Of a DNA stretch of 11,805 bases, positions 3,638-6,331 are shown in pieces (positions within the stretch are counted from its first letter, which is position 1; each line of letters starts with the position of its first letter). The stretch covers positions 1 to 11,805 of the forward strand of contig JAGVFS010000013.1 of the NCBI GenBank assembly GCA_020057535.1. Direction: 5' to 3'. The DNA comes from Patescibacteria group bacterium (GTDB lineage Bacteria > Patescibacteriota > Patescibacteriia > UBA2591 > PGYQ01). The notes beneath the pieces are model-generated. The model saw only the letters and a program-made list of their open reading frames with translations, made no database searches and was not told the DNA's origin. The position numbers were made by a program, and so were the translations under genes.

Positions 3638-6331
3638 ATGAAAAAGTCAAATGAAAATCAAAAAAAATGCATGTCTTTATTAAAAAAATACAAATTACCC
3701 GAAAAAATAATTAATCATATTTTAGGAGTCACGAAAGTGGCTATTTTTTTAGCCAAAAAATTTAAAAAAAAAGGAATAAATATAGACATAGATTTAATTG
3801 AAAAAGCCAGCCTTTTACATGATTTAGATAAAATAATATATAAATTAACAAATAAAAAACATGGGGAATTATCCGCAAAAATTCTTACCAAAGAAGGATT
3901 TTCTAAAAAAATTATTGAAATTGTCAAAAAACACACCATCACATCTCTTTTTAAGAAAGAAACCACGCCGCAAACATGGGAGGAAAAAATAGTTTATTAT
4001 GCGGATAAAATTTTTGATCAATCAATTTGTTCAGTAGATGAAAGATTGGATAAAATGATCCAAGAAAATCCTCAATACATTAAAGAAAGTAAAATTTTAA
4101 AACCTTTAATTATAAAATTAGAAAAAGAAATTCTCGATAAAATAAACATTACTTTTGAAAGTATTAAAACTCAATTTTTAAATAATGAACAGCAATTAAT
4201 CGCTTCGATTATCCCCGCCATTCGCCTTCCTCGACAATTAAATTATTTTGATTATTTAATCCCAAAAAAACTTGAGAACAAAATTAAAATTAATCAAATT
4301 GTAGAAATTCTATTTCATAATCAGAAAATAAAAGGCATTGTTATAGAAATAACAAATAAAACACAAAATAAATACAACTTTATTAAATCCCGCGAAGCAG
4401 AAATTTCGTCAAAAACAAAATTATTTAACAGGACAAAATTAAAAGAAATTAATAAAATTATTGAACCAAAAATAATTTTACCAGAACATCTGATTAAATT
4501 AGCAAAATGGATAAAAAAATATTATTACAGCTCTTTACCTTTAATTATTAAAATTATTCTTCCAGAAATTCCAAAGCATGAAATGCAAAAACACTTTCAC
4601 GGACTAACTTATGAAACTGCCAAAAATTTAACGATTTCTAGAGAATCCGTACCAAGAATAAAAAAAATAATTCATGAATTGATTTATGAACAAAAAAACA
4701 CGCAAACTTTGTTATACTATAAAAATTGGAAAGAAAAATTAACTATTTATATAAAAATTATTAAACAATTAACAAACAAAAATTCAACAAAACAAATTCT
4801 TATTATTGTTCCGCAAATCACGGATATTCAGGAAATTTATAAATATTTAAATTATTATTTTCCAAATCAAATCGCTATCTTACACAATAAACTTTCTAAA
4901 ATTCTTTTTTGGCAAGAATGGCAAAAAATATATAATCAAAAAATTAAAATTATTTTAGGAACGCGTTTAGCTATTTTTGCTCCAATTAAAAATCTAAATT
5001 TAATTATTGTAGACAATGAAGAAGTTTTAACAGAATACAAATCAGAACAAAATCCTCGTTATAATGTTCAAGAATTAGCCAAAAAACTTAGCGAACTAAC
5101 TAAAACTAAATTAATTTTTTCCAGTCAAACGCCACACATGGAGACGTATTTTTTATCATCTCAATCATTAAAATTGAGAATAAAATCGCTATACAACACA
5201 ACAGAAGCTAATGAAGCTAATATTAAAATTATTAATATGCAAGATGAATGGCGTAAAAATAATTATTCATTAATTAGCGACAATTTAGAAGAAATAATTA
5301 AACAAAATTTAAAAAAGAAACAAAAAATATTTTTATTTCTTAATCGTCGCGGGGCTGGAACAACAATAAAATGTCAAGATTGCGGATATTTATTTAAATG
5401 TCCAAATTGCAATTTACCCTTCAATTCAAGCTACAAACCACAAACTACAAGCTACAAACTAATTTGTTATCATTGCAATTTTGCTTTGTTAAATAATTCT
5501 GTTTTTGACGAAATTTCTGCTTCGCGGAATTTAACAGGGTTTACACAAAATATCCCAACAAAATGTCCTCAATGCAACGGAGTAAATATAAAAACTTCTG
5601 GAATTGGAATACAAAGGGTTGAAAAAGAAATTAAAAAATTATTCCCAACAGCCAAAGTGATAAGAATTGACAAAGACGCAGAAAATATAAATTATAAATT
5701 ACGAATTTTAAATCATGAATCACAAATTACAAACTATGATATTGTTATTGGAACACAATTCTTTTTTAAATTATTTAATTCACTAGCCAATAAATTAATT
5801 TTTAATTTAATTGGAATTATTTCTGCTGATTCTTTACTTTATCGTCCAGATTTTCGTTCTTTTGAAAAAACTTTTCAACAACTTTCTAAAATTATTAATT
5901 GGGCAAACAATCAATCAATAACAAATAAACAAATAAAAATTTTAATTCAAACACATTCTCCGGAAAATTATGTAATTCAAGCCCTATCTAAACAGGATTA
6001 TGATTTTTTTTATGAACGCGAAATTAAAATGCGAGAGAAATTTAATTATCCACCATTTTGTAAATTAATTAAATTAATTTATCAAAATTCTGATTTAAAA
6101 AAAGTAGAAGAAAAAACAAATGAATTAGCCAGCAGATTAAAATTGATAAAAGATTTAATTTTCTATCAAATGCTTCCAATAATTCCAAAAGTTAGAGAAA
6201 AATACAGAAAACAAATTATTCTTAAAATAATTAACAATCAGCAATCAACAATCAACAATGAGTTAGAGCAAATTTTAAAAAATCTTGACGAAAATTGGAT
6301 TATTGATGTGGATCCGATAGAAATACTTTGA
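3638..6331 (+). CDS. priA: HD-domain / degenerate PriA fusion protein
   Basis: An 897-residue protein. Residues ~1-180 form an HD phosphohydrolase domain with likely metal ligands H27, H61-D62, H99 and D123. From ~187 the sequence follows PriA: 3'-DNA-binding domain (IIPAIRLPRQLNYFDYLIP), helicase lobes, zinc module and C-terminal domain ending WIIDVDPIEIL. All eight zinc cysteines are present (C579, C582, C588, C591, C610, C613, C643, C646), and LNRRG, GTR-AIFAP and YEREIKMREKFNYPPF are recognisable. The Walker A site (family GxTGSGKTE) reads KNWKEKLT, DEEH reads DNEE, KGHDF after GTQ is lost, and GRAGR reads NWANN, so ATP-driven unwinding looks impossible. PriA normally restarts stalled replication forks; this one may be a structural primosome factor. 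def and fmt follow, as in the classic priA-def-fmt order. Several in-frame repeat insertions are listed separately. The TGA stop fits the family end. Confidence 0.88.
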   Translation: MKKSNENQKKCMSLLKKYKLPEKIINHILGVTKVAIFLAKKFKKKGINIDIDLIEKASLLHDLDKIIYKLTNKKHGELSAKILTKEGFSKKIIEIVKKHTITSLFKKETTPQTWEEKIVYYADKIFDQSICSVDERLDKMIQENPQYIKESKILKPLIIKLEKEILDKINITFESIKTQFLNNEQQLIASIIPAIRLPRQLNYFDYLIPKKLENKIKINQIVEILFHNQKIKGIVIEITNKTQNKYNFIKSREAEISSKTKLFNRTKLKEINKIIEPKIILPEHLIKLAKWIKKYYYSSLPLIIKIILPEIPKHEMQKHFHGLTYETAKNLTISRESVPRIKKIIHELIYEQKNTQTLLYYKNWKEKLTIYIKIIKQLTNKNSTKQILIIVPQITDIQEIYKYLNYYFPNQIAILHNKLSKILFWQEWQKIYNQKIKIILGTRLAIFAPIKNLNLIIVDNEEVLTEYKSEQNPRYNVQELAKKLSELTKTKLIFSSQTPHMETYFLSSQSLKLRIKSLYNTTEANEANIKIINMQDEWRKNNYSLISDNLEEIIKQNLKKKQKIFLFLNRRGAGTTIKCQDCGYLFKCPNCNLPFNSSYKPQTTSYKLICYHCNFALLNNSVFDEISASRNLTGFTQNIPTKCPQCNGVNIKTSGIGIQRVEKEIKKLFPTAKVIRIDKDAENINYKLRILNHESQITNYDIVIGTQFFFKLFNSLANKLIFNLIGIISADSLLYRPDFRSFEKTFQQLSKIINWANNQSITNKQIKILIQTHSPENYVIQALSKQDYDFFYEREIKMREKFNYPPFCKLIKLIYQNSDLKKVEEKTNELASRLKLIKDLIFYQMLPIIPKVREKYRKQIILKIINNQQSTINNELEQILKNLDENWIIDVDPIEIL
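4383..4430 (-). repeat. Palindromic coding element, copy 1 (inverted)
   Basis: The minus strand here matches 5487-5534 at 46 of 48 bases, including an identical 28-bp core (4390-4417). It is translated as about 17 residues (around 249-265) containing KSREAEISSKTK. They lie between the GIVIEI strand and the KLKEINKIIE segment of PriA's DNA-binding domain, where ordinary PriA proteins have little or nothing. No stop codon results in the frame used. Confidence 0.85.
5429..5463 (+). repeat. Heptamer array inside the PriA zinc module
   Basis: Units AGCTACA, AACCACA, AACTACA, AGCTACA, AACTAAT at a 7-bp period encode SYKPQTTSYKL between C591 and C610. The Cys-to-Cys spacing is 18 residues here, against about 14 that I recall for typical PriA, so the array looks like an in-frame expansion. 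Confidence 0.75.
5487..5534 (+). repeat. Palindromic coding element, copy 2
   Basis: This copy matches the reverse complement of 4383-4430 at 46 of 48 bases (mismatches at 5499 and 5528). Its ends carry GTTAAAT (5488-5494) and ATTTAAC (5529-5535), an inverted terminal pair; the inside contains GAAATTTC and a CGAA/TTCG stem. It is translated as LLNNSVFDEISASRNLTG (residues ~617-634). That lengthens the C613 to C643 spacing to 29 residues; without the ~18 element-encoded residues it returns to about 11, near the family norm. Confidence 0.85.
5684..5739 (+). repeat. Heptamer array before the PriA GTQ motif
   Basis: Eight consecutive 7-bp units of general form AxTxxxA run here, among them AATATAA, ATTATAA, ATTACGA, ATCACAA, ATTACAA and ACTATGA. 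They encode residues ~683-700 (NINYKLRILNHESQITNY), just ahead of DIVIGTQ. The units are diverged but the period is steady. Confidence 0.6.
6234..6261 (+). repeat. Heptamer array near the priA 3' end
   Basis: Units ACAATCA, GCAATCA, ACAATCA, ACAATGA at a 7-bp period encode the Asn/Gln-rich stretch NNQQSTINN (residues ~866-874), between the last conserved strand and the C-terminal helix of PriA. Confidence 0.75.

Follow-up and report, generated by a model that had tools for sequence, protein, structure and literature searches.

Short two-hairpin repeats within a patescibacterial priA gene and their probable derivation from a minimal GIY-YIG endonuclease element

Several described systems resemble the repeats reported here. 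Rickettsia palindromic elements (RPEs) are palindromes of ~150 bp that are scattered through protein genes as in-frame insertions; each has an open reading frame (ORF) coding for a conserved peptide, and the accessible portions of the account name no enzyme or autonomous partner for their insertion (PMC10969869). According to the excerpted text of three further papers, REPIN/RAYT systems combine miniature hairpin-forming DNA with a small single-domain enzyme (PMC3116915), rRNA insertions of bacteria of the candidate phyla radiation (CPR) carry GIY-YIG ORFs, match neither intron type and seem to fall outside homing spread (PMC11270868), and the mitochondrial double-hairpin elements of Allomyces and repetitive hairpin elements of sponges consist of adjacent hairpins, are thought to be mobile and sometimes lie in genes (PMC2800124). 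Here we analyze an 11,805-nt stretch of DNA (the window) from a Patescibacteria group bacterium (contig JAGVFS010000013.1), in which a priA gene contains two inverted copies of a short element. These repeats are probably non-autonomous and arose, through internal deletion, from a minimal mobile element that carries a solo gene for a GIY-YIG endonuclease of ~85 aa.

The host gene encodes an HD domain fused to the replication restart helicase PriA (348.5 bits for TIGR00595 priA, cut-off 230; Pfam HD 46 bits, PriA_3primeBD 57.9 and PriA_C 39), and its 897-aa ORF reads through both copies in frame. Copy 1 lies within the 3'-DNA-binding domain and is translated as ..YNFIKSREAEISSKTKLFNRTK..; copy 2 lies between the Cys pairs of the zinc module and is translated as ..FALLNNSVFDEISASRNLTGFT... 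Direct comparison confirms the inverted pair reported in the initial annotation, with 46 of 48 bases complementary (4383-4430 against 5487-5534) and an identical run of 28 bases. The longer arms 4376-4440 and 5477-5541 match at 57 of 65 positions (an 88% inverted repeat). Twenty Markov-resampled versions of the AT-rich window had exact inverted repeats of up to 16-26 bases, by which standard the 28-base run alone is only modestly above chance. The pair is settled as real by the same element being found with model R1 at nine sites in its own genome (G000, a 523-kb draft assembly, 92.5% complete) and in 12 of the 26 genomes of the order; by BLAST, 10 of 38 genomes are carriers (own genome included in both counts). 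The same annotation had also taken the unit to be a palindrome of ~48 bp. Its inverted copies are real, whereas the unit is a 56-bp core, CCCTGTTAAAT...ATTTAACAGGG, with conserved 4-mers outside (~4 nt on each side), laid out as a terminal stem with two hairpins.

A longer form of the element carries a gene. In two genomes (G004 and G015) the same termini stand 291 bp apart around a single gene, that of an 85-aa protein (P0001) with GIY-YIG as its sole Pfam match (58.9 bits). Full elements measure 269-301 bp and consist of a GIY-YIG ORF framed by the termini of the short copies. They occur in genomes titled Cloacimonadota (L294), Desulfobacteraceae (L297, L328) and Omnitrophota (L300) and in several Patescibacteria (L287, L288, L291, L296). 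Exactly the same three-way junction is found in 21 of 25 full elements. The terminal stem of the complete element, (TTYA)CCCYGTTAAAT/ATTTAACRGGG(TRAA), is predicted to fold on one strand; in terms of arms, hairpin A reaches from the leader into the NLKLRF motif codons, and hairpin B takes up from this point and ends with the last codons. The loop of hairpin A thus holds the leader and the first third of the gene, and that of hairpin B the remainder. Arm sequences vary among full elements (AATTTTAAATTTT, AGCTTGAGGTT, CCTTTCAA) yet pair. The last codons, often with the stop, lie in stem B and in the right terminal repeat with its flank. This repeat codes for the end of the protein: of the 120 relatives listed out of 2,872 (E<=1e-10, clustered at 90% identity), 117 have a YLTG-like motif among their final 14 residues.

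The protein itself has the catalytic Tyr, Tyr, Arg and Glu of the GIY-YIG superfamily, and Y6, Y17, G19, R27 and E51 are invariant in 26 sequences. Its predicted model has a pLDDT (predicted local distance difference test) of 96.7. In the VIA list of fold matches SLX1 and HIGLE come first, followed by I-TevI, with the UvrC fold also listed; Foldseek places UPF0213 (1zg2) first and SLX1 next. These lists are not exclusive, the families named being only those seen. P0001 has matches in 41 of 47 palindrome-carrying genomes (reached through 50 of at least 111 loci), some of them in longer ORFs, in a search confined to carriers.

The genome G052 connects the full and the short forms. Besides a full element of 288 bp (L286) it contains a 151-bp form with the A loop retained (L316) and forms of 135-137 bp (L315, L317, L318) in which nothing but part of the B loop is left; a 56-bp form is nested inside another copy (L315). 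Probable further intermediates are present in other genomes (L103, 146 bp; L095, 143 bp). Mainly on account of the G052 series, we find the case strong that the short repeats are internal-deletion derivatives of the GIY-YIG element.

The architecture of the short form was derived from 18 copies that share the most frequent length, 54 nt when counted from CCTG to CAGG or 56 nt from CCC to GGG, other lengths being excluded. Their alignment gives a terminal stem and two internal hairpins with zero free bases between them. Cells in which both sides of a pair are altered number 37 against 19.5 in shuffles, and none of 500 shuffles reaches 37; the covariation score and the number of paired cells are also above all 500. 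As judged from sequence comparison, the short element is a three-way junction, made of the terminal stem CCCTGTTAAAT/ATTTAACAGGG and two abutting hairpins, and not a simple palindrome. We collected 197 distinct short copies, allowing up to four changes in all in the termini. The core spans 37-81 nt in 179 flank-unique copies, 56 being the commonest length, and interiors are mostly unrelated in sequence between copies. Two hairpins beat all 40 shuffles in 142 of the 177 flank-unique copies with a core of at least 42 nt (171 distinct interiors), 137 of them without a base between the hairpins; by record title this holds for 24 of 25 Patescibacteria, 12 of 12 Omnitrophota and 10 of 14 Desulfobacterota copies. 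Of 184 copies, 32 carry the triloop hairpin GCGAAGC or its complement, compared with 0.6 in shuffles. We take DNA hairpins of this sequence to be exceptionally stable, as would suit an element that folds at the DNA level. For 26 of 129 arm sequences, with nested arm lengths as separate entries, both loop orientations (AAA/TTT, GAA/TTC) are found on the same arms, as if hairpins had flipped singly.

Comparison of PriA orthologues shows that both copies were inserted. The zinc-module insert is absent from the PriA of five other members of the order, G009, G010, G005, G016 and G018, all of which are exactly 20 residues shorter there. At the site of copy 1 the same five have no such element: three are 20-21 residues shorter and two carry unrelated inserts. 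The 20 extra residues correspond to a net gain of 60 bp, that is, the core plus 4, and comparison by eye of the nested L315 copy with its sister copy agrees with such a gain. The refuting case, segments shared by all orthologues and no other copies, therefore fails, and the initial proposal of a mobile, non-autonomous element that inserts in frame holds. Its assignment to this lineage has to be dropped, since by record title the termini occur in several phyla. The near identity of the two copies had been read as recent spread or conversion. Both copies occupy the same sites in the sister genome (G002). Each differs from its G000 orthologue at 5 of 56 positions, against 8 (G000) and 12 (G002) between the two copies of one genome. 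Because orthologous copies are closer than paralogous ones, the insertions are older than the G000/G002 split and recent conversion is not indicated. Overall, mobility was correctly recognized, whereas the GIY-YIG full form and the three-way junction were missed.

The reading frame has left a clear mark on the copies within genes. Only 22 of the 197 short copies lie inside ORFs (at least 50 aa on either side), against 524 of 985 random windows from the same loci. The core equals 2 modulo 3 in all 22, compared with 114 of 197 (58%) overall. These 22 include L220 twice, orthologues (PriA in G000 and G002, TnpB twice, TsaE twice) and the doubtful L145, and the filter does not pick up copy 1 of the window, which has diverged too much; for the 17 independent events the chance is ~2e-5 (0.526^17, where 92/175 is the share among copies outside genes). 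Host genes above curated cut-offs are leucyl- and glutamyl-tRNA synthetases (leuS, gltX), RsmA, TnpB, S9 (rpsI) and TsaE; RluA-family, RmlD, HolB and TolQ/ExbB relatives score below their cut-offs, FtsZ, DsbD_2, PMT_2 and DUF4012 are assigned by Pfam, and a MurE-like ligase in the own genome is named by motifs alone. Most in-gene copies are translated as xHPVKS...FNRV and others, on the opposite strand, as FTLLN...LTG. The frame is open on both strands and hosts use both, in line with the earlier suggestion that the element can be read in either direction. Copies also occur in intergenic DNA.

Some sites appear to have been modified after insertion. The MurE site in G001 has an in-frame, single-hairpin remnant of 36 bp instead of the 56-bp copy; the G003 orthologue is equivocal. 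In TsaE of L013 (G025) and L041 (G008), from two families of the order, the element stands at the same position (by eye) with different interiors, which indicates either repeated use of one site or remodelling in place. Comparing G000 with G002 gave no clean empty site. Both have the C10 copy, G003 has none at that locus but has diverged too far for the junction to be placed, and neither of two other joined loci showed a clear empty site. The flanks are polar, with TTTA at one end and RTTCA at the other (50 of 168 copies, against 9 same-type pairs). We considered insertion into other palindromes and rejected it, as outside the 4-mers complementarity between the flanks does not exceed that of permutations. 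Between G004 and G015 the full elements share 92% identity, and their alignment ends 22-29 bp outside the element in loci of 2.8-3.4 kb; the flanks are thus unrelated and the sites different.

Among 84,980 genomes of named species, a search for both termini at a distance of 20-45 nt gave at least 111 stretches. Patescibacteria, Omnitrophota, WOR-3, Desulfobacterales, Cloacimonadota, Armatimonadota and Bacteroidales are represented among the 80 record titles listed. The exact pattern occurs in 7 of 379 genomes sampled from the phylum (reversed control: 0) and overlooks diverged copies, including every copy of the own genome. One stretch with the terminus pattern is present in the viral collection. 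An identical interior is shared by records titled Armatimonadota and Desulfobacteraceae/Desulfobacterales (L077, L085, L111).

Positions of the host gene and of the two element copies within the window.
Feature	Position	Strand	Details	Basis
Host gene for an HD-PriA fusion protein of 897 aa	3638..6331	+		ORF, TIGR00595, Pfam
Element copy 1 with 4-nt flanks	4374..4437	+	flanks ACAA / CAAA, hairpin A first on + strand	repeat comparison, model R1
Copy 1 core	4378..4433	+	56 bp, counterpart of CCCTGTTAAAT...ATTTAACAGGG	model R1, 71.9 bits
Copy 1 hairpin A	4389..4401	+	CCCGC-GAA-GCAGA, 2 of 5 pairs decayed	alignment A1, structure
Copy 1 hairpin B	4402..4422	+		alignment, structure
Element copy 2 with 4-nt flanks	5480..5543	-	flanks TTTG / TTTA, inverted	repeat comparison, model R1
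Copy 2 core	5484..5539	-	56 bp	model R1, 74.4 bits
Copy 2 hairpin B	5495..5515	-		alignment, structure
Copy 2 hairpin A	5516..5528	-		alignment, structure

The same gene has other notable features. Its N-terminal HD-domain phosphohydrolase module (window 3638-4180) is fused to PriA here and in G002, and is not part of the ORF in the five other aligned orthologues. Two in-frame low-complexity stretches, ACAAACTACAAGCTACAAACTA (5426-5462) and CAATCAACAATCAACAA (6236-6262), also seem to extend PriA relative to orthologues, and an AAACGC repeat of similar kind extends MurE in G001. Perhaps these low-complexity stretches are another type of in-frame insertion of this lineage.

The probable origin of the PriA repeats from a GIY-YIG element builds on the termini and the exact three-way junction shared by long and short forms, the graded series, presence and absence between genomes, and persistence in frame. 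The complete element of ~290 bp would fold on one strand into a three-way junction with its gene in the hairpin loops. Collapse of these loops would leave palindromes of ~44-66 bp that keep the terminal sequence and the junction. The nuclease may act both in cis and in trans, cutting the extruded junction, the target, or both, after which the element would be copied into the break and add the core plus 4 bp; perhaps it is a cutter of branched DNA like SLX1. Within genes only insertions of a multiple of three would survive, giving inserts of ~16-22 residues (20 in PriA). We infer that the nuclease has this role in movement and that the full elements are autonomous.

Spread by the host is the most serious alternative, though we consider it rather unlikely: template switching, hairpin-primed synthesis or break repair would multiply the palindromes, and the GIY-YIG gene would be a passenger once captured between the arms. 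It would agree with the nuclease missing from many carriers, with the two loop orientations on the same arms (26/129), as host-mediated flipping would give, and with the lack of a clear target duplication. Yet the terminal 11-mers are conserved across phyla far beyond what pairing needs, a graded series from the full gene to the 56-mer exists within G052, the C-terminus of the gene is the repeat itself in nearly all relatives listed (117/120), and terminal inverted repeats, mostly of other sequence, are found at 20 of 40 other solo GIY-YIG loci. A REPIN/RAYT-type element moved by a Y1 (HUH) transposase, or a miniature inverted-repeat transposable element (MITE) of an ordinary DDE insertion sequence, would likewise be small, rich in hairpins and present in multiple copies (for REPINs, as far as the excerpt of PMC3116915 goes). 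We regard this as improbable, as Y1_Tnp (PF01797) is present in 5 of 12 carriers against 7 of 14 non-carriers of the order and in neither G000 nor G002, and GIY-YIG is the only gene found between the same termini, the transposase search having covered Y1_Tnp only. That the segments are ancient conserved protein parts or structured RNA, with no insertion at all, can practically be dismissed: both copies are coding and conserved in G002, but they are missing from five PriA orthologues and the same DNA recurs in unrelated genes and in intergenic DNA. The window has no Rfam match, and together with five loci it gave a single sub-threshold one (mir-1991, E 0.46).

A number of observations count against derivation from a nuclease-driven element. 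The GIY-YIG gene and the palindrome could be co-travellers moved by something else. Four of the 25 full elements fail the junction test (L329, L300, L331, L305), as do 35 of 177 short copies in the two-hairpin test, 14 of them WOR-3; the WOR-3 copies (L080-L151) keep the 11-bp termini around an interior of 38-41 nt and pass in 4 of 18 cases. The single Cloacimonadota, Clostridium and Bacteroidales copies fail as well (0/1 each), so that the Clostridium and Bacteroidales matches may be due to chance. Two of five covariation measures lie within the shuffles, namely pairs with a double change (47/500 as high) and further pair types (315/500). Direct 4-mers flank 13 of 168 copies (permuted mean 3.6, maximum 12) and none is 5 nt or longer; no clear target-site duplication is seen. 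Among carriers of the exact pattern, 6 of 47 have no P0001 match and only 17 of 47 have one of at least 60% identity. G000, G002 and G003 have no PF01541 match, and the copies in their genus may for this reason be relics. Finally, the genomes are mostly metagenome-assembled, and phylum labels can be wrong through binning.

Other solo GIY-YIG genes show related arrangements. Terminal inverted repeats exceed a 99% null at 21 of 24 close relatives (at least 60% identity) and at 20 of 40 more distant loci, which mostly have other termini (CCCGTTAGAGAT, CCCCCACAC.., CCGTAGA.. and others). A null of cross-locus pairs, exceeded by only 5 of 24 close and 6 of 40 distant loci, weighs on the other side, though it was spoiled by loci with common ends (many CCC) and the cleaner null is the one given above. 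The order contains 90 GIY-YIG matches, the ends of which were inspected in about a third. Eleven loci with full or partial elements gave no Rfam match up to E 0.1, and hence no known host intron. Within the collected loci there are five candidate short derivatives for CCCGTTAGAGA and none for seven other termini; two CTAAATTTTAAA matches were rejected, both lying inside full elements of the CCCTGTTAAAT family. Short palindromes with CCCGTTAGAGA-type ends lie at 1334-1396 of L273, 3140-3231 of L226 and 2141-2236 of L305, and such ends are the termini of another solo GIY-YIG group (L280, L306, L310).

Eight solo GIY-YIG genes picked by eye (L257, L269, L274, L277, L279, L284, L304, L311) all lie near or beside tRNA genes; in L274, again judged by eye, a tRNA-Met-like sequence occurs in pieces that alternate with two nearly identical GIY-YIG genes. 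The solo GIY-YIG genes of L275, L263 and L281 are framed by TCATTCCCGCG-, GTCATTGCGAGGAG- and CGCGGCAATCCCG-type repeats, which we take to be very common palindromic repeats in many bacteria; possibly these are further GIY-YIG element families.

We give about an even chance to a broader reading, in which these elements are a class of bacterial mobile DNA of their own, each coding for a structure-specific GIY-YIG nuclease that works on its own three-way junction. On this reading the CCCTGTTAAAT family would be one of several, given that further solo GIY-YIG genes are bounded by inverted termini of different sequence. Many palindromic repeats of uncultured bacteria that still lack an explanation, along with their in-frame palindromic peptides and perhaps RPEs, would then be deletion derivatives. 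Such a class could define transposable elements whose gene measures only ~255 nt, and it could be the source of the in-frame inserts, ~16-22 residues long, that essential enzymes carry in Patescibacteria and in further phyla. The 85-aa nuclease, encoded in the loops of the structure on which it possibly acts, is a testable candidate enzyme for the entry of short palindromes into protein genes, and a role could also emerge for the 2,872 relatives, a large set that carries the annotation 'putative endonuclease' or 'GIY-YIG nuclease family protein'. None of the papers listed in our searches of the open-access literature, a coverage outside which most subscription papers and preprints fall, describes such an element, and the GIY-YIG-linked element looks undescribed so far. 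We know of no insertion sequence family with a GIY-YIG enzyme.

Compared with the known systems, the short copies resemble MITEs in being deletion derivatives, with terminal inverted repeats, of a putatively autonomous element. The partner, however, has no DDE transposase, target duplication is not clear and the interior is a conserved junction rather than arbitrary. Free-standing GIY-YIG homing endonucleases such as I-TevI are associated with one cognate site, whereas here many scattered sites are used, no known intron is involved and short derivatives are left behind. The Allomyces and sponge elements, compared by description, also have adjacent hairpins that at times lie within genes; they are mitochondrial, and the accessible text of PMC2800124 does not mention an endonuclease. 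As far as the portions at hand go, the rRNA insertions of CPR bacteria are the nearest case in the literature, with GIY-YIG ORFs in non-intron insertions common to both; palindromes are unmentioned in that main text (PMC11270868), whereas here short derivatives occur in protein genes and intergenic DNA. REPIN/RAYT systems share the combination of miniature hairpin DNA and a small single-domain enzyme. In our case the enzyme is of the GIY-YIG type without Y1 association, its gene lies inside the repeat, and full, partial and short forms are found in one genome. The likeness to RPEs, again compared by description, concerns in-frame palindromes in protein genes (22 of 22 in-gene copies here), while the present elements differ in their size of ~44-66 bp, fixed 11-mer termini, two hairpins, occurrence in several phyla and a candidate autonomous partner.

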